A DNA stretch of 64,000 bases from Tahibacter amnicola (GTDB lineage Bacteria > Pseudomonadota > Gammaproteobacteria > Xanthomonadales > Rhodanobacteraceae): positions 857,501-921,500 of the forward strand of contig NZ_CP104694.1 of NCBI RefSeq assembly GCF_025398735.1. Reading direction: 5' to 3'. The translations under genes and the position numbers were made by a program. Positions 3,404-61,140 of this stretch are shown here, piece by piece. Each line of letters starts with the position of its first letter. Within the stretch, counting starts at the first letter, position 1. Under the pieces are notes generated by a model. That model saw only the letters and a list, made by a program, of their open reading frames with translations, was not told the origin of the DNA and did no database searches.

Positions 3404-4197
3404 GTGCCGCACCGGTCCGATCGCTACCCCTGGAAGGCGGCCGTTCGGCGCCTGCCGCCGGGCTGGATGGCGTGCTGCGCCATCCAGGTGTATGGCGCCG
3501 CTCCGCGCCGCTGTCGATGCGGGCGCAATCCACCGGCTGGGATGCGCTGGATCGTCTCCTGCCCGGCGGCGGCTGGCCGCTGGGAGCACTCTCGGAAATT
3601 CTCATCGGTGCCGATGGCCTGGGAGAGCTGAGCCTGCTGATGCCGGCGCTGGCCAGCCTCACCCGCCAGAAGCAGCGGGTGGTGTTCGTGGCGCCGCCCT
3701 ACATTCCCTATGCGCCGGCCCTTGCTGCCCAGGGCATCGACCTGGCCTTCGTGGCGGAGGTCGGCAATCCCACCGACGACCCTCTTGGTTCGATGCGGCC
3801 GCGTGTCTCCTCGGCGGCCGCTCTGCAGTCCGCTGGTGGAATAGCACCCGCTGCGATGCCGCCCAGGGCAGGAACGACGACGTCTTCTCCTGCTGGTGGG
3901 CGCCGGGTGTCCGATGCCTCCTGGAGTGCCGAGCAATGCCTGCGTTCCGGTGCCTGTGGCGCCGTCCTTTTCTGGGCCGACAAGACCGACTACGCCCAGC
4001 TGCGCCGTTGGCAGCTGGCGGCGGAACATGGCGGTGGGCTCGCGTTTGTCTTCCGTCCCGAAGCGATGGCCTCACAGGCCAGTCCCTCGGCGTTGCGCCT
4101 GCTTGTACATGCGGACGAACAGGGCACATCGGCGGAGATCCTCAAATGCCGCGGCAGCTTTGGTGCTGCTGCCACACGATTGCGATGGCGTGCCTGA
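3400..4197 (+). CDS. imuA: ImuA, RecA-like accessory protein of SOS translesion synthesis
   Basis: A 265-residue RecA/SulA-like protein. It matches ImuA in the N-terminal half (HPGVWRR, then STGWDALDRLLPGGGWPLGALSEIL near 45-70, and RVVFVAPPYIPYAPAL near 90-105) and near the end (AEQCLRSGACGAVLFW). ImuA works with ImuB and DnaE2 in damage-induced mutagenesis. Between IDLAFVAEV (about residue 122) and WSAEQCLRSG (about 176) there are roughly 45 extra residues, rich in Ser, Pro, Gly and Ala, where other ImuA proteins as I recall them have only a few. The frame stays open, so this looks like an in-frame insertion in a loop. ATGA overlap with lexA2. Confidence 0.88.
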   Translation: MSAAPVRSLPLEGGRSAPAAGLDGVLRHPGVWRRSAPLSMRAQSTGWDALDRLLPGGGWPLGALSEILIGADGLGELSLLMPALASLTRQKQRVVFVAPPYIPYAPALAAQGIDLAFVAEVGNPTDDPLGSMRPRVSSAAALQSAGGIAPAAMPPRAGTTTSSPAGGRRVSDASWSAEQCLRSGACGAVLFWADKTDYAQLRRWQLAAEHGGGLAFVFRPEAMASQASPSALRLLVHADEQGTSAEILKCRGSFGAAATRLRWRA

Positions 4198-49804: not shown

Positions 49805-51958
49805 TTACAGGGCGAGGACATTTCCCAGCGGCAGGTCGCGGTGGCGGCGACCGGTAGCGGCTGCGATGGCGTTGGCCAGCGCCGGCGCCACCACCGGGGT
49901 TGCCAGCTCCCCGGCGCCCGTCGGTGGCGCGCTCGACGCGAGGATGTGGACCCGAACTGGGACCGCTTCGGCCATTCGCAAGAGGCGGTATTGATGAAAG
50001 TTGCTCTGTTCCGCGCCGTCCGGCGTCAGCGCGATCCGACCGTAGAGCGCGTCGGAAAGTCCGTAGAGCACGCCACCTTCGATCTGTTGCCGCAGAAGGT
50101 CGGCATGGATCACGCGGCCGCAATCGACCACGGCGTCGAACCCGACCAGCCGGACGGTGTCGTTGCCGGCCACGGTCACCCGCGCGGCCAGGGCGACGAA
50201 GGATCCGCGCATCGCCGCGCAGGCATGGCCGGCGATGACGCCTTCCGCGTGCGTGCGGGCCAGTTCGTCGCGCAGCCGGCGCAACACACGGTCCAGGCCG
50301 GCGCGGTCGTGATCGCGCGTGGAGGGCGGGCCGGAGTGGTCCGGCTGGTGATCGATCAGGGCCAGTTGCAGGGCAATCGGATCCAGGCCGCGCCGCAGCG
50401 CGATCTCGCCGATCGCGCTCTGGATCGCAAACACCAGGTGCCAACTGGCGACCGAGCGCTGCCAGGCCACGCGGACCGGCGCCTTCACTGCGGCGGCGTG
50501 GAAACGCTGCCGTGCGACGCGGTAAGGAAAGGCGCGCAGTTCCTCCAGTTCCCAGTCCGCATGGCGCGTCGCCGCCGGGTCCTCCACGGTGGCGACACTG
50601 GCGAACGCGACCCGGTGGTCCCACCGCTGCGGGCGTCCCTCGGCGTCCAGCGTGATCGCCAGCTGCTGCCGGCTGGCGGGGCGGAAGTAGCCGCGACTGA
50701 ACTCGTCCTCCCGCCGCCACAGCACCTGCACCGGCCAGGCCACCTGCCTGGCCAGCAGCGCCGCTTCGACGACGAAGTCCTGCTGTGCCTTGCGCCCGAA
50801 GCTGCCGCCCAGGAGCGTCACGTGGACCGTCACCTTTGCCGGTTCCATTCCCAGCGCACGGGCCACCAGCTTTTGCGCCAGCTGCGGATTCTGCGTCGGT
50901 GCCCAGATTTCGCAGCGGCCCTCGGCGTAGCGCGCGGTCGCCATGGGCGGTTCCAGTGGCGCATGGGCGGTCATCGCCGTGGTGTAGGTGAGCGACAGGG
51001 TGTCGCCGTCGGATGTGCCCGCATCGCTGCCGCTTTCCTGGACGGGAAGGGCCTGCGCCGTGGCTTCCTCGAGCATCGCCTCGGACCAGGTGGGCGCCTG
51101 GCTCCACTGCACCGTGAGCAGGCGCGCCGCCTTGATCGCTGCCCAGGTGGTGCGGGCGATGACGGCGACGGACGCGAGCGAGTTGGCCGGCGCGGCCTGA
51201 GCTTCCAGCGGCAGGACGGCTTCGACGCCGGAAACGGCACGCGCCCTGGCGTCATCGATGCGCACGATCCGCTGCGCCGGAAAGGGCGCGCGCACCAGCA
51301 CGGCAAAGCGCTGCTCCGGCAACTGGATGTCGATGCCAAAGCGGGCCTTGCCGCGCACGATGTCGTCGCCGTCGATGCGTCGTGGCAGCGTCGCGGGCAT
51401 TCCCGGCGACAGCGGCTTGGGCATCTCCTTCTGCGGTAGTGGTCGGGCGGCGGCGACGGCGACGAGATCGGCGTAGGGGATCCGGTGACGGGTGCCTGGC
51501 CGGACCACGGCGCCTGCGTCGGTATCCAGAGTCGCGGCCTTGGTGCCCCAGCGTTGTGCGGCAGCCTCCATCAGCGCGGCGCGCGCCTTTCCGGCCGCTT
51601 GCCGCAGCGGCGCATGACAGCTACGGATGGTGTAGCTCCCTTCGGTGTTCTGGTCGCCCAGCTGCGCATCCGCGTCGCCCTGCACGACACGTACCGATGA
51701 CCAGGGCACATCCAGTGCCTGGGCAAGGACCAGGGCCAGGCTGGTGCGCACGCCCTGGCCCATTTCCGAGCGGTGGATGGTCAGCGATACCGAACCATCC
51801 GCGCCGATTTCCACGAAAGCGCCCAGCCGGCGTGCCGCCCGCGGCAGGGCCAGTCCGACGCGCAGGCTGGCCAGGGCCGCCACGGCAACGCCGGCTTTCA
51901 GGAACCGGCGCCGGTCGGGGTGCGGCGGCAGCGCTATCGAGTCACCGTCGTGGCTCAT
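49805..51958 (-). CDS. Tat-exported molybdopterin-binding oxidoreductase (xanthine dehydrogenase family large subunit)
   Basis: A 717-residue protein of the isoquinoline 1-oxidoreductase beta/aldehyde oxidase type. A twin-arginine signal (DRRRFLKAG with Ala-rich core) sits at 16-38. Molybdopterin dinucleotide motifs include [13 protein letters not shown] near 63, [13 protein letters not shown] near 372, and the C-terminal [18 protein letters not shown] near 682, with the catalytic Glu. The usual small [2Fe-2S] subunit gene is not adjacent. It overlaps the preceding secreted protein gene by four bases (51955-51958), which ties it to the FG-GAP operon. Substrate unknown. Confidence 0.85.
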
Positions 51959-52520
51959 AGCTTGAGCTCCAGCCAGCCGCCGGTGTGCGTGGCCGCCGTT
52001 CCCGCGGGAAAGACGATGCCGGGCTCGCGCGTGTGCACGTCCAGCCGCAGGCGCCAGTGCCGGCCGGGGAACCGCTGCCGCCGAATGTGAAACTCGGTGG
52101 CTTCCGCCGGCGCGAAAGTGAGCGTCCTGAAATCGGTCACGCGGGCGACGCTGGCCGACCAGTCGTGATGGTTCCACCAGGTCCAGGTGGGCGCAGCGTC
52201 ATCGGTGACGGTCCGTTCGCCCAGCATGGCCGAGGCGTGCAGATTGTGGATCACGCCGTCATCGGCGGCGAGGAAAAGGTCCACGCCGTAGGACTTCGGC
52301 GGCGTGTAGTGGAGGCAGAGCGCGACGGTGCCGTCGTGCTGCGTAATGCGTAGCACGATCTCGCCAGACAGGTTGACCGTCGCTGCCCTGGCATATTCAT
52401 CCGTGCCGCAGCGCCCGTCGAGCAGGCTGCCGCGGGTTTCGGGAATGCGCAGCGGGGGGCGCTGGCGGCGGTCGATGCCGTGGCGGCCAGTGTCAGCAGG
52501 AAAGCAAGGGCAGGTCTCAT
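51955..52520 (-). pseudogene. Small secreted protein, frame disrupted in a C run at 52454-52459
   Basis: The ATG at 52520 overlaps the stop of the FG-GAP gene (ATGA, 52517-52520) and opens a typical signal peptide MRPALAFLLTLAATASTAAS. After the six-C run (minus strand of 52454-52459) the good reading is in the -1 frame: PLRIPETRGSLLDGRCG, then HYTPPKSYGVDLFLAADDG and TWTWWNHHDW, to stop 51955. One extra C would join them into about 188 residues. The mature part has no family I know. Programmed slippage on the C run is possible but unproven. Confidence 0.7.
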
Positions 52521-55342
52521 GGCCGATCCTCGTGCGCGCGCCGCAACGACTCGAAATCGCTGCTGAAAAGCCGATCGCCGATCACCGTCACCAGGCCGCT
52601 GCCGGTATTGCCCGTTGCCGCAGGCTGCAGCGCGATCGGGTAGTCGCGATAGCTCACTTCGCTGTGCGGACCCTGCGGATCGTTGAGCAGCGTCACCCGG
52701 ATCGCGCCCGACGGCGGCGTCGCCGGCGAGGACGGAATGGTGGCCGCAACGTACCACTGGCGAGTACCGGTCGCAGCGACTTCCAGCATCGCCGTGGCCG
52801 TCGGGTCCGACAGGTCCAGGCTCAGCAGCCCGTCGACCAGGGTCAGGCCGGCCGTGTCAAAGTACCCCACGCGGGTGTCGGCATGGGGCTCCCAGCGACC
52901 GTCGCCGTCGTCCACGAACAGGCTGATGCGTTGAATCAGCCCGCGCAGCGCATCGGCGGTCAGTGGCGTGCCATTGGCGTCGTCCCACTGCAGCCGCAGC
53001 GTGCGTAACCGCGACGAGGGATCGGCACGACGGCCCAGGTGGCGCATCCGTACTCCCAGCAATCCGACGTCGTTGCCCGGCCCGATCGTGGCGCCGGCGA
53101 CTGGATGGCCATCCAGCCGATAGTGTCCCCGTGTCGACGGCCACCAGTGCAGACCGGCCACCGACGAGGGTGCGCTGGCGATGACGTCTTGCGTTCCGTT
53201 GCCATCGACGTCCACCACCGCCAGTGAATGGGGTGATGAGATCCAGGCGGCGTACAAGCCCGTATCCAGCGCATGAGGGATGAAGTTCGGCCGGTCCCAT
53301 TCCACCCAGGTGGCGGCGTTGTCGCCGGTGATGGCGAAATCCAGGTCGCCGTCGTCGTCCAGGTCGGCCGCGTGCGTTGAATTGGGAACAGCGATGCCGC
53401 CCGTCGGGAAGCCGTGGCGGTCCCAGCCGCCGGTCCACCGGGTGTTCAGGTAGAAATTGAACTGGCCATTGAACCCGGGGCCGAACAGATCGATGTCACC
53501 GTCGTGGTCGATGTCGATGGGCTGCAGGTCGCCTGATCCATAGTTGTAGCGCTGGTCGTGCACGATGCCGCGATTCCACGTGCCGCCGCCGCGGCCGGGA
53601 TTGGAAAACCAGTGCGTCGCCGCGGTATTGCCGCTGCCGTCGCGGTACTGGGAAACCGCGAGGTCACTATCGCCGTCGTGGTCGAAGTCCGCCACCGCAA
53701 GGGTGCGCGGCGCGGTCATCGCGCCAACGGCGCGCTTTTCCCAGCGGCCGCCAGCGCCATCGAGATTGGCCCACCAGTCCACCGCATGGGTGCTTTCGTT
53801 GCCGGCGACGACATCCACGTCGCCATCGTCGTCCAGGTCGGCCAGTTCCACGGACACGACGGACGGCGTACCGCTGGCCAGTTCAACGGGAACAAGCGCG
53901 GAACGCTGGCCCACGTTGCTGTACCAGATGAGGCGGCCACCGGAACGATCGTTGGCCACGGCGTCGGGCTTGCCGTCCCGGTTGATGTCGCCGACGGCCA
54001 GTGCGTCGCCGACCAGCGTATCCAGCCGGATGTCCCAGCCCGCACCCGTGTTGAAACCACGAAACAGGTTGCTGGGGTACATGCCGATGCCGATCACGTC
54101 CGGGTCACCGTCATTGTCGAGGTCTGCCACGCGGAAGCCGCCCATGCCGTAATAGCCGGTCGGCTCGATGCCCCAGATTTGCCGTCGGGCGCCGAACTGC
54201 GCCTGGCTGTGCATGCGCACGTTGGGATACACGCGGACCATGCCGTCGGACTGGCCGCCGGCGATATCCAGATCGCCGTCGTTGTCCGGGTCTGCCAGGC
54301 TGATCAGGGTAGAGCCCTCGGTGCCGCTGCTGATGGTGTAGCTGGCCCAATCCCGGCCGGATCCATCGCGGTTCTCGCGCCAGAGCACGGTGTTGGCGAC
54401 CACGGTGCTCATGACCAGGTCGTGATCGGAATCGCCGTCGAGGTCGCGCACCTGGACGGTACGTACGCGCTGTACAGATGCGCCGGTTTCGTGCCGCGCC
54501 CATCCCCGGGCCTCGCCGGTGTTTTCGTACCAGTGCAGGAAATGGCCGTTGCCGACTGCCAGGTCCAGGTCGCCGTCCCGGTCGACATCGGCGGCATCCA
54601 GGGCGCTGGGCGCGCCCGGGTTCTCCCAGACGACGTGGCGGTCCCAGCGCGTGCTGTCGCCCGAGGCGTTTTCGTACCAGTACAGCCGGTTGCTGCTCAT
54701 CGAGAGGGCAGCAACGTCCGTGTCGCCGTCACCGTCGAAATCGCCGGTATCCAGCGCCGATGCGCCCGGAATCGCGCTGTCGACCATATGCGAGGTGCTC
54801 CAGTTCGCCCCCCGATCCCGGTTCATGAACACGCCCGTCCGACCCATCGTGACCGAGCCGGCGACGACGTCGAGGCTGCCATCGCCATTGGTGTCGGCCA
54901 GCGACGCCGCCACTGCGCCGGGATAGGCGGCGACCGGATGCATCTGCCAGGACTCGCCGCGGTTCTCCCACCAGTCGATGCGCCCGCCGGTGCCGCTGGG
55001 CACTGCGCCGGGCGACGCGGTGAGGATGTCCAGGTCGCCGTCGTCGTCGATATCGCCGACGTCGACGCTGCGCGGCTGCGCCGCTGCCAGGGCGACGGTC
55101 ACGGGCCGCCAGGTGTCATCCACCTCGTGGCTCCAGACGATGATGCGGTGATCCGTGGCGGACACGCCGACAATGTCGTCGTCCCCGTCCGCATCCATGT
55201 CGGCCCAGTGCAGGTCCGCCACCTCGCCGAAATCATGGCCGGCATCGACCGGCGTTGCGAAGGGGATGGCGGTTGCGCCGGCCAGCACCGGCGCCATCGC
55301 GGCCAGGAACACCGCGCAATAGCGAAAAAGTGGATTAATCAT
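52517..55342 (-). CDS. Secreted FG-GAP/VCBS repeat protein (paralogue A)
   Basis: A 941-residue protein with a Sec signal peptide (to about residue 24). I count 14 Asp-rich calcium loops of the type DxDxDGDxD (for example DMDADGDDD, DIDDDGDLD, DFDGDGDTD, DLDNDGDPD), spread over about 45-690, which would build two seven-bladed propellers. A C-terminal domain of about 220 residues with PLTADALRGLIQRISLFVDDGDG is shared with paralogue B. The tail DRLFSSDFES resembles the F-x-DGFE tails of other exported Xanthomonadales proteins. It starts 22 bp after the NTF2-like gene. Confidence 0.88.
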   Translation of the reverse strand: MINPLFRYCAVFLAAMAPVLAGATAIPFATPVDAGHDFGEVADLHWADMDADGDDDIVGVSATDHRIIVWSHEVDDTWRPVTVALAAAQPRSVDVGDIDDDGDLDILTASPGAVPSGTGGRIDWWENRGESWQMHPVAAYPGAVAASLADTNGDGSLDVVAGSVTMGRTGVFMNRDRGANWSTSHMVDSAIPGASALDTGDFDGDGDTDVAALSMSSNRLYWYENASGDSTRWDRHVVWENPGAPSALDAADVDRDGDLDLAVGNGHFLHWYENTGEARGWARHETGASVQRVRTVQVRDLDGDSDHDLVMSTVVANTVLWRENRDGSGRDWASYTISSGTEGSTLISLADPDNDGDLDIAGGQSDGMVRVYPNVRMHSQAQFGARRQIWGIEPTGYYGMGGFRVADLDNDGDPDVIGIGMYPSNLFRGFNTGAGWDIRLDTLVGDALAVGDINRDGKPDAVANDRSGGRLIWYSNVGQRSALVPVELASGTPSVVSVELADLDDDGDVDVVAGNESTHAVDWWANLDGAGGRWEKRAVGAMTAPRTLAVADFDHDGDSDLAVSQYRDGSGNTAATHWFSNPGRGGGTWNRGIVHDQRYNYGSGDLQPIDIDHDGDIDLFGPGFNGQFNFYLNTRWTGGWDRHGFPTGGIAVPNSTHAADLDDDGDLDFAITGDNAATWVEWDRPNFIPHALDTGLYAAWISSPHSLAVVDVDGNGTQDVIASAPSSVAGLHWWPSTRGHYRLDGHPVAGATIGPGNDVGLLGVRMRHLGRRADPSSRLRTLRLQWDDANGTPLTADALRGLIQRISLFVDDGDGRWEPHADTRVGYFDTAGLTLVDGLLSLDLSDPTATAMLEVAATGTRQWYVAATIPSSPATPPSGAIRVTLLNDPQGPHSEVSYRDYPIALQPAATGNTGSGLVTVIGDRLFSSDFESLRRAHEDRP

Positions 55343-55364: not shown

Positions 55365-55883
55365 TCAGGGCTTCTGCGGATAGTTCAGCGATCGGAAGAT
55401 GCGCCATCGTCCTGAGTCATCGCGCCGGAGTACGTCAATCGAACGGTTGGTGGTGACGACACTGTCCTGCCCCTGGGCGTCCGTGCGCACCAGTTCCCAG
55501 GACGAACGCACGTAGGCCAGCCGGCCGTCCGCACTGATTTCCTCCAGGCGCGCGCGCCAGCGCTGCCCGGGGGCATTGCGCGCGAAATCGTCGCGGTAGC
55601 TGCGTTGCAGCGCCGGCCAGCCCTGGTCGGGAACGCCCTGGAAGCTGAACACCACGTCAGGGTCGAAGATCGCCATGACCTGCTCCAGGCGCTTCTGGGC
55701 ATAGGCGTCCAGCCATTGCTGGAAGACCGTCCATACCTCGCGGGCCTTGGTGCGGTCACCCAGCAATTGAGAGTCGCCGGGAAGCGTCGCGGATGCCGCG
55801 GTACCAGCATGGTCGTCGGCAAGGGCGCAGGACGAGGACAGCGCAACTAGCAGCGCGGTGACGTGACACAGCAATCGGTTCAT
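55365..55883 (-). CDS. Exported NTF2-like (SnoaL/DUF4440-type) protein
   Basis: A 172-residue protein. A Sec signal peptide (MNRLLCHVTALLVALSSSCALA) is followed by an NTF2-like cone: REVWTVFQQWLDAYAQKRLEQVMAIFDPDVVF near 50-81 and DVLRRDDSGRWRIFRSLNYP at the end. Such domains bind or convert small molecules or serve as adaptors. It overlaps the FG-GAP gene upstream by four bases (55880-55883), so it is co-translated with it. Confidence 0.85.
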   Translation of the reverse strand: MNRLLCHVTALLVALSSSCALADDHAGTAASATLPGDSQLLGDRTKAREVWTVFQQWLDAYAQKRLEQVMAIFDPDVVFSFQGVPDQGWPALQRSYRDDFARNAPGQRWRARLEEISADGRLAYVRSSWELVRTDAQGQDSVVTTNRSIDVLRRDDSGRWRIFRSLNYPQKP

Positions 55884-58672
55884 GGCGTGAAGTCCGTGGT
55901 GGAGGATTGGCGCGGCTCGAAGCCGTCGCGGAAGAAGGTGTCGGCGTCCACCACCAGGAATCCGGTAGCGCCGTTAGATGTGGCGCTGTTGCTGAGTGCT
56001 ACACCATACGTATCGCGTACCAGGCTGGCGGGCCGCCCGGCACCATCGGTCACGCCGAGGAACGTGGCGCGAAACCGGGCCGGCAAGGCGGGTGGATTTG
56101 CCACGTACGTCGGAACGATGAAGTAGCGCTGCTGCGAGAACGTCGACACCTGGAAAAGGGATTGGGCCGTGCTGTCGTCGATTGCCAGCACGCCGTCGGA
56201 AAGGCTGAGGTCCTCGACCGTGGCGGCCACCGTGTCCATCGGGTCGAGCACGCCGTTTCCGTTGTCGGTGTAGACGTGTACACGCTGGATCAGCGCATTG
56301 GCTTCGGCACTGGTAAGGGGAACGCCGGGCGCGCTCTCGAAGTACAGATTGAGCCGGGCGATCTTCAGGTCCAGATCGTCCTGGTTGCCCTGGTGCCAGA
56401 TCGTCGCCGCCATCAGCACGCTGGCCCGGCCGGCGGGAACCGTGCCGGACGGTGTGTTCGATGCGAGCAACTCGTACTGACCGCCGAAGTTGCGCCACCA
56501 GCGCACGCCGCTGGCGGGCGTGATCTTGCGTCCCGCACCGATGAGATCCGGATCGCCGTCGCCGTCGATATCGCCGCTGTCCAGGTCGACTGCACCGGGC
56601 AACGTGTCGAAGCCGACCCACCCCGTCAGATACACTGAGTCGTCGTTCTCGCCCCAGAACAGCATGCCCATGTCCGCTGCAGAAACGGCGAGGTCGGCAT
56701 CACCGTCGGTGTCGAAATCGGCGGCGCTGATGGCGGTGTAACCGTAATCGCCCGGATCACGCAGGCCGATGCGCGGCGTCCAGCTCGTGGCGTTCGCGTT
56801 GTTCTTGACCAGGGTCGTGCCGGCCGACTGGCTGACCAGGAGGTCCAGGTCGCCGTCGCTGTCGATGTCACGCGCGGCGATACCGGTGGGCTGTTCGATG
56901 CCACTGGTGGCGAGCGTCGCGATCCAGCCGGCACTGCCGTTGCGATACCAGCGCACCGTGCCGTCAGTGCTGATGGTGCCCAGATCGGTGCGGCCGTCGC
57001 GGTCGAAGTCACCGCTGGCGATGCCGTTGACGCCGGTGATCCCCGTGGCAACGACCTGGCGGGTCCAGGTGTTGCCGCCGTCGACGTTGATCCAGGCATA
57101 CACGGCGCCCTCGACATCGTCGGCGATCGCCACGTCGGTGCGGCCGTCGCGGTTGAAGTCGGCCGCTGCCACGCCGATGGCATGGCTCATCTCCGGTGTC
57201 TTGGCGATGCCGTAGCGCGTCCACGTTCCCGTGTGCCAGCCGTACCAGGCCAGCTCCGCGCCAGCGGCCACGGCGTCAACGACGCCGTCGCGATTGACGT
57301 CGGCCAGTGCCAGATCCGCGTGCTGTCCGGCGCCGAAGTTCAGGGGCGCGGAGAATTGCCCGGTACCGTCGTTGATCCAGCGCACCAGCATGCCGGCGGG
57401 GCCGGGTTGATTGGCATAGGCGATGCCGATGCCGTCGAGATCGCCGTCGCGATCCAGGTCCGCCAGGCGGGCGCGCTGCGCATGCATCGGCACCTGGATG
57501 TCGCGCTGCTGCGAGGAATGAAAGAAGAACTTCCGATGCAGGCGCCAGTTGCGGTACAGCCCGACGTCGCCTTCCGTGCCGCCGGCAACGACGTCCAGGT
57601 CGCCGTCGCGGTCGACGTCGCCGGCGACCACGGCATTGGCTTGGAACAGGCCCACGTCCAGCCGGCGTTCCGTCCACTGCGTGCCGCGGCCGTCGATGTT
57701 TTCACGCCAGAGCAGCAGATGCGCGCTGGTGCTGGTGGAAACCAGGTCCGCGTCGCCGTCCTGGTCCAGGTCCACCGGGATGGTCTTGAGAACATTCGGC
57801 AGTGCCGGCCCGGTCTGGTGGGCGATCCAGCCGTGCGCGTTGCCTTCGTTCTCGTACCAGTACACGCCGTCACCGCCGCCTAGCGTGACATCGAGGTCGC
57901 CGTCGCGGTCGATGTCGGCCAGGCGCGCATCCAGCGGTGCGGTGATGTCGTCCGTGACCGTGCGCGCCACCCAGGCGCCGCCGGCACCCGCCGCACGGTT
58001 TTCGTACCACTTGACCGATGTGCCGCCGAAGGCGGTGGCGACCAGGTCCTGGTCGCCATCGCCATCGAGATCGCCCGCGGCCACTGACGAGGCCTTCGGC
58101 AGCGCGGTGTCGGTGGCCACTTCGGCCCAGTCGGTTCCGTTGCTGCGGTTGATGAAGGTGAAGACGCGGTTGGCGTTCAGCGCCGTGCCGATGACATCCA
58201 GCGTGCCGTCGGCGTTGACATCCGCCAGGGTGACGGACCAGGCGTCCAGCACGCTGGCAATCGGATGCGGCGACCAGCCGACGCTGGTCTGTTCCCACCA
58301 GATCACCTGGTGCGCGCCGTTGAGCGCGCCCACGAGGTCCAGGTCGCCGTCGCGGTCGATGTCGCCGACGGCGACGCTGCGCACGCCGGCGGCCATCGAC
58401 GAGATCGTACGCGCGGTGTACGTGAGCCCGTTGCGGTACCAGCCCATGATCGTGGCGGTGTTACTGGAGGCGCCGATCACGTCCTGGTCGCCGTCGCCGT
58501 CAAGGTCGGCCAGTTGCAGTGAAGCGACCGCGCCGAAGTTCGTGCCGATCGGTACGCCGCTGTCGATGGGCAGGTCCGCGGCGGAAAGCAGAGGACTCAG
58601 GACCAGCGCGGCGAGGCCGGCGGCGCGGCCGGTTCGGCGCGGCCTGATTCGTGAAGTCGGTATATGGAGCAT
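55880..58672 (-). CDS. Secreted FG-GAP/VCBS repeat protein (paralogue B)
   Basis: A 930-residue protein, first gene of the five-gene operon. A signal peptide with a basic start (RIRPRRTGRAAGLAALVLSPLLSA) is followed by 14 calcium loops (for example DLDGDGDQD twice, DIDRDGDLD twice, DVNRDGVVD), again fitting two seven-bladed propellers. The C-terminal domain with PLTSAEANALIQRVHVYTDNG matches paralogue A, and the tail is DTFFRDGFEP. ATG 58672 is chosen for its signal peptide; the frame is open further upstream, but that part crosses the direct-repeat array. Possible adhesin, ligand-binding or matrix protein. Confidence 0.88.
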   Translation of the reverse strand: MLHIPTSRIRPRRTGRAAGLAALVLSPLLSAADLPIDSGVPIGTNFGAVASLQLADLDGDGDQDVIGASSNTATIMGWYRNGLTYTARTISSMAAGVRSVAVGDIDRDGDLDLVGALNGAHQVIWWEQTSVGWSPHPIASVLDAWSVTLADVNADGTLDVIGTALNANRVFTFINRSNGTDWAEVATDTALPKASSVAAGDLDGDGDQDLVATAFGGTSVKWYENRAAGAGGAWVARTVTDDITAPLDARLADIDRDGDLDVTLGGGDGVYWYENEGNAHGWIAHQTGPALPNVLKTIPVDLDQDGDADLVSTSTSAHLLLWRENIDGRGTQWTERRLDVGLFQANAVVAGDVDRDGDLDVVAGGTEGDVGLYRNWRLHRKFFFHSSQQRDIQVPMHAQRARLADLDRDGDLDGIGIAYANQPGPAGMLVRWINDGTGQFSAPLNFGAGQHADLALADVNRDGVVDAVAAGAELAWYGWHTGTWTRYGIAKTPEMSHAIGVAAADFNRDGRTDVAIADDVEGAVYAWINVDGGNTWTRQVVATGITGVNGIASGDFDRDGRTDLGTISTDGTVRWYRNGSAGWIATLATSGIEQPTGIAARDIDSDGDLDLLVSQSAGTTLVKNNANATSWTPRIGLRDPGDYGYTAISAADFDTDGDADLAVSAADMGMLFWGENDDSVYLTGWVGFDTLPGAVDLDSGDIDGDGDPDLIGAGRKITPASGVRWWRNFGGQYELLASNTPSGTVPAGRASVLMAATIWHQGNQDDLDLKIARLNLYFESAPGVPLTSAEANALIQRVHVYTDNGNGVLDPMDTVAATVEDLSLSDGVLAIDDSTAQSLFQVSTFSQQRYFIVPTYVANPPALPARFRATFLGVTDGAGRPASLVRDTYGVALSNSATSNGATGFLVVDADTFFRDGFEPRQSSTTDFTP

Positions 58673-58762
58673 GGGAGTTTCCAGGACGGGAGTGGCACAG
58701 CCGGCGCCGCCCGGAGTGGGCTCGCCGATGGCCGCGGATCCTCGGCGGCGGCCCGCAGCGGC

Positions 58763-58806
58763 GCTTGAGGAAGACCTGAGGCCCGGCTGAGGTCCGCCTG
58801 AGGAGC
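58763..58806. promoter_or_regulatory. Four 11-bp direct repeats, probable operator of the divergent regulator
   Basis: Core [CT]TGAGG occurs at 58765, 58776, 58787 and 58798, exactly 11 bp apart; TGAGG is invariant in all four. This is one helical turn per unit, the geometry of OmpR/PhoB-type winged-helix operators. The divergent gene just downstream encodes such a DNA-binding domain. The array lies 91-134 bp upstream of the FG-GAP paralogue B start. Confidence 0.65.
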
Positions 58807-58944
58807 GGACCAACGGTGGCTCCGGTGCGCCGGAACGAACCGTGGAAGGCACCGCGGGTCGGGCAGTGGCTTGAGCCTTCCGCGCGGCTGACCGGACAAT
58901 GGGCCCTCGATGCCGGCAAGCACCGCGGGTGCGGGGGAGCGGGA

Positions 58945-61140
58945 GTGGGCGAGGCCAATCGCGATCAGGAGTTTGTGCTGGCCGACGCGCGCGTCTGGCC
59001 GGCCCTGCTGGAGATCGAGCGCGGCGGCGAGCGCAGCCGCGTCGAGCCGCGCATGATGGAGGTGCTTGTCTATCTGGCGCAGCACGCCCCCCAGCCGGTC
59101 AGCCGGGATGCGTTGATGGAGGCCGTCTGGCCTGATCGCCCTGTATCGGAAGATTCGCTCAACCGGATCATCTCGCGCCTGCGCGCCGTGTTTGACGATG
59201 ACCCGCGCAGCCCGCGCCTGATCGAAACCATTCCCCGGCGCGGGTATCGCCTGTTGCAGACGCCGCAGCAGACGGAGCCGGAGACGCTGAGCGCCGACGC
59301 GCCGGCGGAAGGTCCCGCGCAGGCCAGTACCTACGCGGCGTTCGACACCTCCGAGCGCATTGCGGACCTGATGGCGTCAGCGCCGGTGCCGGCGCAGACG
59401 GCCACGGCGGTGCCACCCCGGCCCGTGTTCGGTTACCGGTCGCTCTGGTGGATGGGAGCGGTCGTCCTGCTCGCGGCGGCCGGCACGGTGCGCGACTGGT
59501 CGCGTCCGGATGCCGCCGAGCCGCCGCCGGCGCCACGATTCGGCGTACTGACGGCCTATCCGGGCAAGGAGACGTCGGTCGCCTTTGATCGCACGGGCCA
59601 GCGTGCCGTCTTCACCTGGGACGGCGAGGCACCGGGAAATCGCGACCTCTACCTGCGTGACGTTATCGGCGGGCTGCCGCAGCGATTGACCCGCGATCCC
59701 GCCGACGACCATGCCGCCGTCTTCGCGCCGGACGGCGAGCACCTGGCCTTCGTCCGGTCGGATGCGCAGGCCCAGTGCTCGGTGCGCTGGCTGAATCTGA
59801 GCACTGGCGAGGAGCGCGAGCTGGTGACCTGCCATCCCATGGCGCACACGCGGCTCGCCGTGACCCCGGACGGCGGGCGCGTCATCTTCAACGACACGCC
59901 AGGATTGACCAGCGGACGACTGGTGGAGGTGCGCCTGGACAATCCCGTACGGCGCGACCTCACCTCGCCGCCGCCGGGCGCACACGATCACTTTCCGGCC
60001 GTCAGTCACGATGGTCGCTGGGTCGCCTTCACCCGGCTGGGTGATCTGGGCGGGCAGGATATTTTCCGCATGCCGGCAGAGGGTGGGGTCCCCGAACGCC
60101 TCACGTACCAGGACGCTGCGATCTTCAACCTGGCATGGACCCCGCGCGGCGACATCCTCTACGTGAGCGACAAGAACGGCGGGCAGGGGTTCTGGCGCGT
60201 GCGTCCGGGGAAAGTGCCGCAGTGGCTGGGGTTGTCGGAAAGCGATGTGCAGTTCCCGGCGTTGAGCGGTGACGGCCACCTGCTGAGCTTTGAGCGGGTG
60301 CAGTTGCAGTCGGGCCTGTGGCACAGCCGGCTGTCGACGGATCGCAGCGGCGGGCGGGCGGTGATGCCGTCCTCGCGGCAGGACTGGTTTCCCCGCTATT
60401 CGGCCGACGGCAGGCAATTGGTGTTCAGCAGCAATCGCAGTGGCCAGTTCGGCGTGTGGCTGGTCGACGCTGACGGCGGCGTGCCGCGCGCGCTGCGCGA
60501 AGGGCTGGGCCTGTCGCCCGTCGCACCGTCGTTCGCGCCGGACGGTACGCGCGTGATCTATTCCGAGCGGCAGCAGCACAACGCGGATATCTGCGTCATC
60601 ACTGTGACTGACGGAAGCCGTCACTGCCCGGTCAGTGACCCCGCCAACGACGTGCACCCGCTGTTCACCCCGGACGGGAAGTCGATCGTGTTCGCCTCCA
60701 ACCGGGCCGGCACCTACCACCTGTATCGCGCGGCAGCGGACGGCAGTGCGGTGACGCGGATCAGCGACACGCCCGCGGTGGCTCCGCTGCCCTTGGCGGA
60801 CGGGCGGCTTCTCTTCATGCGCTTCGGGCGTCCGGGCCTCTGGGTGCGCGAGATCGAGGGCGCCGAACGGGAGTTGCATCCGGGCCTGCCGGCGCTGTCC
60901 TTCCGAAATTTCGACAGCGATGGCGTGGATGCCTGGTTCATCGACCAGCGCGGACACCTGCTGCGGATACCCCTGCCCGGCGGCGAGGCCGTCGACCTGG
61001 GCGAACTGGCCGGCGCGGGCGAACGATCGGGTTTCACCCTGTGCCCGGTCAGCGACGGCTATGCCTATGCGCGCATCGAGCGCGATGAAATCGATCTTGC
61101 CCTGGTGCAGGGACTCTTCGATGCCGGTGACTGGCGTTGA
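58945..61140 (+). CDS. CadC-like membrane-bound winged-helix regulator with TolB-type beta-propeller
   Basis: A 731-residue one-component regulator. The OmpR-type winged helix spans about 10-105 (RVEPRMMEVLVYLAQHAPQPVSRDALMEAVWP, then LNRIISRLRAVFDDDPRSPRLIETIPRRGYRLL). A single membrane segment follows at about 170-188 (LWWMGAVVLLAAAG). The rest is a periplasmic propeller of WD40/TolB-type repeats (PDGEHLAFVR, DGRWVAFTR, DGRQLVFSSNRSG, DGKSIVFASNRAG). It likely senses a periplasmic signal and controls DNA directly. The start is GTG 58945, with GGGGAG 5 bases upstream; an in-frame start at 58816 is possible. Divergent from the FG-GAP operon. Confidence 0.87.
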   Translation: MGEANRDQEFVLADARVWPALLEIERGGERSRVEPRMMEVLVYLAQHAPQPVSRDALMEAVWPDRPVSEDSLNRIISRLRAVFDDDPRSPRLIETIPRRGYRLLQTPQQTEPETLSADAPAEGPAQASTYAAFDTSERIADLMASAPVPAQTATAVPPRPVFGYRSLWWMGAVVLLAAAGTVRDWSRPDAAEPPPAPRFGVLTAYPGKETSVAFDRTGQRAVFTWDGEAPGNRDLYLRDVIGGLPQRLTRDPADDHAAVFAPDGEHLAFVRSDAQAQCSVRWLNLSTGEERELVTCHPMAHTRLAVTPDGGRVIFNDTPGLTSGRLVEVRLDNPVRRDLTSPPPGAHDHFPAVSHDGRWVAFTRLGDLGGQDIFRMPAEGGVPERLTYQDAAIFNLAWTPRGDILYVSDKNGGQGFWRVRPGKVPQWLGLSESDVQFPALSGDGHLLSFERVQLQSGLWHSRLSTDRSGGRAVMPSSRQDWFPRYSADGRQLVFSSNRSGQFGVWLVDADGGVPRALREGLGLSPVAPSFAPDGTRVIYSERQQHNADICVITVTDGSRHCPVSDPANDVHPLFTPDGKSIVFASNRAGTYHLYRAAADGSAVTRISDTPAVAPLPLADGRLLFMRFGRPGLWVREIEGAERELHPGLPALSFRNFDSDGVDAWFIDQRGHLLRIPLPGGEAVDLGELAGAGERSGFTLCPVSDGYAYARIERDEIDLALVQGLFDAGDWR

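Follow-up and report, generated by a model that had tools for sequence, protein, structure and literature searches.

Winged helices of the OmpR/PhoB fold bind as head-to-tail tandem dimers to direct repeats, and repeats with three or four motifs are bound more tightly by PhoP than those with two (PMC4832192). Sites with an 11-bp step have been documented for PhoB and PhoP and include CTGTCAT-4-CTGTCAT, TCACAGC-4-TCACAGC, and GTTCACC-N4-GTTCACC (PMC4832192), which bears out the premise of a preliminary description of the present locus that winged helices of this type use direct repeats of the period found there. TcpP recognizes TGTAA-N6-TGTAA and ToxR recognizes TNAAA-N5-TNAAA (PMC4829181). The sites of CadC are AT rich and have been modelled head to head (PMC5430869).

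The window (the whole 64-kb stretch of Tahibacter amnicola DNA that was analyzed) encodes a membrane regulator with the following features.

58945..61140, plus strand: membrane one-component regulator, 731 aa (GTG at 58945; a longer frame runs from 58816)
59032..59253, plus strand: winged-helix DNA-binding domain, PF00486 (Trans_reg_C; E 1.4e-17)
59425..59499, plus strand: transmembrane helix region, residues 161-185 (hydropathy, predicted helix)
59536..61110, plus strand: all-beta region, presumably periplasmic, with PD40/TolB-like repeats, residues 198-722 (domain matches, model)

The GTG at 58945 is preceded by a ribosome-binding-site-like GGGGGAG; the start codons given for this gene and its divergent neighbor are predictions based on the ribosome-binding-site-like stretch and a signal peptide. 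The protein consists of an N-terminal winged helix, a linker, one transmembrane helix, and beta-propellers with PD40 repeats, and no match to a receiver domain was detected in a domain search. It thus has features of the ToxR-like class, namely, an N-terminal Trans_reg_C domain, no receiver domain match, and one predicted transmembrane helix. An AlphaFold model (mean pLDDT of 80.7) contained the winged helix at residues 1 to 105, then a low-confidence linker, a helix at residues 166 to 185, and an all-beta part at residues 198 to 722; the hydropathy peak (residues 161 to 179) lay at the predicted helix. The model suggests a topology in which a single transmembrane helix would be followed by an extracytoplasmic domain. 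Fold matches included TolB and other propellers. The top Foldseek matches were LRP propellers, which reflect tandem propellers generally and are uninformative on the function of the regulator. Assignment as TolB was rejected at 150.3 bits versus a cutoff of 343 (TIGR02800 equivalog), and the resemblance of the propeller to TolB is limited to repeats and fold. The protein had been described as a CadC-like winged-helix membrane protein with a beta-propeller; this architecture stood (PF00486, transmembrane helix, and PD40 repeats), but the protein is not CadC, as it scored 61.3 bits versus a cutoff of 400 (NCBIfam PRK10153 equivalog).

Escherichia coli CadC nevertheless shares the winged helix, disordered linker, and single transmembrane helix with the window regulator, to which it can be likened as a periplasmic sensor that activates an adjoining operon. 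It is not an ortholog, and the periplasmic part of CadC is not a propeller. Since CadC sites are AT rich and lie head to head, in contrast to the direct repeats of the window, PhoB and TcpP are better parallels. Vibrio cholerae TcpP and ToxR combine a membrane-held winged helix with direct-repeat operators, as is proposed for the window regulator; the step is 11 bp for TcpP, as in the window, but 10 bp for ToxR. TcpP and ToxR each have a small periplasmic part that acts together with a partner protein. Unlike both systems, the window locus has four copies of a GC-rich word and a regulator with large TolB-like propellers. PhoB of E. coli and PhoP of M. tuberculosis and S. coelicolor have the same 11-bp direct-repeat step and TCA/TGA core as the window repeats, but these are soluble response regulators with receiver domains, whereas the window regulator has its N-terminal winged helix on a propeller-bearing membrane protein, and the word TGAGG/CCTCA differs from theirs.

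The repeats are located between the regulator gene and a divergent operon for exported proteins.

58673..58944, no strand: divergent intergenic region, 272 bp, between the FG-GAP ATG and the regulator GTG
58765..58803, plus strand: four-copy 11-bp-phased direct-repeat array, proposed operator (sequence, shuffles, genome uniqueness)
58765..58770, plus strand: repeat 1, TTGAGG (read from sequence)
58776..58781, plus strand: repeat 2, CTGAGG (read from sequence)
58787..58792, plus strand: repeat 3, CTGAGG (read from sequence)
58798..58803, plus strand: repeat 4, CTGAGG (read from sequence)
55880..58672, minus strand: first gene of the proposed target operon, encoding an FG-GAP repeat protein with an apparent signal peptide (MLHIPTSRIRPRRTGRAAGLAALVLSPLLSAADL)
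55365..55883, minus strand: exported SnoaL-like/DUF4440 protein, 4-bp overlap with the first FG-GAP gene
52517..55342, minus strand: second exported FG-GAP protein (35% identity to the first)

Four copies of [CT]TGAGG with an invariant TGAGG had been claimed at an 11-bp spacing, and the positions (58765, 58776, 58787, and 58798) were exact. Tandem operators of the OmpR/PhoB type have at least two copies at steps of 10 to 11 bp; here, four copies lay on one strand in the same orientation, and the step was exactly 11 bp three times. On the minus strand, the array reads CCTCAR-N5. The distance from the array was 92 bp to the FG-GAP ATG and 141 bp to the regulator GTG, and no recognizable sigma-70 consensus promoter was detected on either side (58673-58944). 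By analogy, the array is best read as a tandem operator like those of PhoB and TcpP.

A chance origin in GC-rich DNA, which the preliminary description had thought unlikely, was examined by scanning periods of 7 to 30 bp. No other site in the window had a 5-mer repeated four times at a single period. When the window was shuffled, a four-copy array of some word and period arose in 1 of 12 first-order and 0 of 12 third-order sequences. The expected number of four-copy arrays in the window was 0.020 when any period was allowed and 0.0008 when the period was fixed at 11; for the 272-bp intergenic region at period 11, it fell to 3.5e-6. Furthermore, the word contains T and A, the rarer bases here, and fits a rule of the regulator family described below. 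Coincidence is accordingly an extremely improbable explanation, as had been supposed. A coding origin was discarded: 11 is not a multiple of 3, so the period does not come from codon repetition, and the site is upstream of the signal peptide.

Alternatively, the array could be a short, minisatellite-like tandem duplication with no regulatory function. Copies 2 to 4 have similar spacers as well as words, with agreement at 8 to 9 of 11 bp, and Tandem Repeats Finder reported a 2.6-copy 11-bp repeat, so that these three copies may possibly have arisen by tandem duplication. A functionless tandem repeat, however, should be near-identical over the whole unit, spacer included, in all copies, whereas the spacer of copy 1 differs from the others and its match is limited to the word. 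The window contained no other such array, and a family-wide excess of period 11, with words kept and spacers divergent within ortholog groups (see below), also argued against this explanation, which we consider very unlikely.

The whole genome was then searched for related sites. The three-copy pattern was present in the 6.46-Mb genome at the array only. The pair YTGAGG-N5-YTGAGG had one other match, within a coding frame (C1:2123549); no second intergenic copy of the array pattern was found genome-wide, and this pair word gave no wider regulon. These data bear on whether the array is bound by another winged-helix protein, such as a classical response regulator, rather than by the adjacent regulator. 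The genome encodes 25 Trans_reg_C domains, many of them in proteins of response-regulator length, and the TGA/TCA core and spacing would also fit classical pho boxes (PMC4832192). However, the absence of a second intergenic site suits a dedicated local regulator, and among relatives the arrays adjoin the gene for a winged-helix membrane regulator and are rare in control intergenic regions. Binding by a different winged-helix protein is therefore unlikely, if less so than duplication.

Binding by the adjacent regulator was evaluated through its relatives. Searches of genomes from the genus (8), the family (233), and the order (398) yielded no ortholog, the best relatives being 29 to 35% identical, and a first scan of genome contigs was also negative; plasmid-borne relatives were too distant to be informative. 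Because the regulator had no ortholog in the searched genomes, the array itself could not be footprinted by conservation. A first set of 40 regions upstream of related regulators, drawn largely from the genus and order, gave a count of 15 for exact 6-mers at period 11, versus 6.8 in shuffles. One paralog in the same genome (C1:3278935; 32% identical to the regulator) has CCTGACC-N4-CCTGACC between its own gene and a divergent gene for an exported protein. A mixed in-genus set of 109 regions, with many winged-helix types, gave 25 versus 15.8 in shuffles (z of 2.5), a weak signal due to many TPR-type and other groups without arrays. Later comparisons relied on ortholog groups and propeller-type relatives instead.

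A phylum-wide set was assembled with a profile of propeller-type regulators, using one genome per species, and comprised 80 loci from many phyla with 78 usable upstream regions. Exact period-11 repeats of at least 7 bp were present in 20 of the 78 regions, compared to 2.2 in shuffles (z of 13), and those of at least 8 bp in 10, compared to 0.6; all other periods were far below period 11. Period 11 ranked best in 17.1 of 78 upstream regions; for two sets of control regions from the same loci, the corresponding values were 1.0 of 74 and 2.2 of 72. Period-11 repeats were present in 4 of 93 other intergenic regions of these loci as opposed to 20 of 78 upstream of the regulators. Another 58 regions, taken from order genomes and separate from the 78, were fetched after the tests had been fixed; some of their genomes had also contributed to the first 40 regions. 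In this second set, repeats of at least 8 bp at period 11 were detected in 7 regions versus 0.5 in shuffles, with 0 of 80 shuffles reaching 7. Overall, clear arrays were present in about a quarter to a third of the relatives, and the upstream enrichment of direct repeats phased at 11 bp was strong and specific. For 18 array-bearing loci the upstream neighbor could be called, and at 12 of these it was divergent; approximately 10 of the 12 divergent neighbors started with an apparent signal peptide, as judged by eye. Loci without arrays were also often divergent (30 of 51), and hence divergence itself is not specific.

Ortholog groups were examined for conservation of such arrays. Across 19 groups, a conserved three-copy match of at least four positions was detected at period 11 only, although several of the groups had no phased array. 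TAACG is kept three times at 11-bp steps in three orthologs of group G (L124, L140, and L152), and YCTKCGC is kept three times in seven group C orthologs, one of them in the genome of the window; in the one group C member examined, the array precedes a divergent gene for an exported protein. Two phased copies are kept in group J (GATAAT/GATCAT, i.e., GATMAT) and in group B (TTGCGC/TTGYGC). Several unrelated groups thus keep the 11-bp phasing with differing words and divergent spacers. In group S (L088-L092), which contains the closest relatives of the window regulator, TGGAGG-N5-TRKGGT is kept over a promoter-like GGTTTTGCTATAGATT, and this is suggestive only. A simple code linking the sequence of the recognition helix to the repeated word was looked for but not found.

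Several other features of these regions were observed. The conserved block GGTTTTGCTATAGATT of L088-L092 resembles a promoter of the extended -10 type. In six group B upstream regions (L049, L051, L058, L059, L064, and L087), the start codon is preceded, in addition to the phased TTGYGC pair, by a conserved near-palindrome, CTACGAAA-N3-TTCGT, and by a conserved TTGTGGCATGCT. TAACG is also conserved three times at 11-bp steps in L179 (G002, at about 3705-3731), where, as in L140 and L152, it is located between the gene for a winged-helix/protein-kinase/TPR protein and a divergent gene for an exported protein, and so the phased grammar is not limited to propeller-type sensors. In L206, from a Kordiimonadales MAG, two different 11-bp-phased arrays (TGTCGGT/TGCCGGT three times and ACATGGGGA twice) lie in one intergenic region upstream of the regulator, as if two regulators shared it.

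A TGA (or TCA) core was first spotted post hoc in the initial lists of repeated words, where it was present in 21 of 69 words at period 11 versus 42 of 605 at other periods. In the fresh second set, the core was present in 9 of 19 words at period 11 and 18 of 148 at other periods (P = 6e-4). TGA had the highest period-11 excess of 32 trinucleotides (3.1-fold). Triple TGA at 11 + 11 was found 23 times in 241 regions, compared to 0 to 4 times at periods 9, 10, 12, 13, and 14, and not all of these counts are independent, as some loci are related (e.g., L247/L254); in the phylum-wide set, 14 were found versus 1 in control intergenic DNA of greater total length. Other four-copy TGA arrays were present at L191, L294, L304, and L326, and TGAG words were present at L145, L182, L299, and L334. 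The window word TGAGG contains this family core, and the window array is a clear four-copy example of the family grammar. On the opposite strand the core becomes TCA, which also occurs in the pho box CTGTCAT and in TCACAGC and GTTCACC (PMC4832192), and the array would point at the FG-GAP operon if its polarity follows that of the pho box. Mixed 11- and 10-bp steps were seen in the TGA-core arrays of L290, L299, and L312, and the words of L299 are CTGAGG-like, as in the window.

The anatomy, phasing, and location of the array, the domain architecture of the regulator, and the family-wide occurrence and conservation of such arrays were observed; binding by the regulator, the target, the signal, and the direction and sign in which control is exerted are inferred. 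The array is probably an operator of the adjacent membrane regulator that controls the divergent FG-GAP operon and probably the gene for the regulator itself; the sequence comparisons support the earlier reading of the array as the operator of this regulator, which appears to be right in substance. Given the use of direct repeats by PhoP, TcpP, and ToxR, up to four domains of the regulator are proposed to align along the array. Between two and four winged helices would bind in head-to-tail order, each taking up 11 bp, and, as 11 bp is about one helical turn, would lie on one face of the DNA as do the domains of the PhoB family. The propeller region would sense an envelope signal across the membrane, and occupancy of the array would control the exported FG-GAP operon and probably the regulator gene. 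Signal peptides of the operon proteins were judged by eye, and for the first FG-GAP protein the genus offered only weak repeat matches.

This mode of DNA binding is already known; what is new is a phased grammar with a TGA core that is tied to a large, apparently unstudied class of propeller-bearing membrane regulators. Regulators of this kind, which join a membrane-anchored winged helix to propellers, are abundant, with several per genome in this order, and are present in Acidobacteria, Bacteroidota, Krumholzibacteria, and many gammaproteobacteria. The literature searched contained no papers on the DNA sites of these regulators and none on CTGAGG operators. A broader and tentative interpretation, which we hold to be somewhat improbable as a whole, is that these regulators form a cross-phylum surveillance class with one operator grammar, in which two, three, or four words with a TGA core would be spaced at 11-bp steps beside the gene of the regulator itself. 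Each array would face one exported protein, and each paralog would have its own word and essentially one target. As part of the same interpretation, the propeller might monitor the exported FG-GAP proteins that it controls, a tetramer of membrane-held domains might occupy the four-copy array, and the FG-GAP locus would perhaps be a closed envelope feedback loop. If arrays of such grammar are operators, targets and words could be read from genomes, and each regulator would be testable with one short DNA probe.

On the same strand, the second FG-GAP gene is followed by a further gene (49805-52177, minus strand). By appearance it encodes a large molybdopterin-type subunit, and its product resembles an isoquinoline/aldehyde oxidoreductase.
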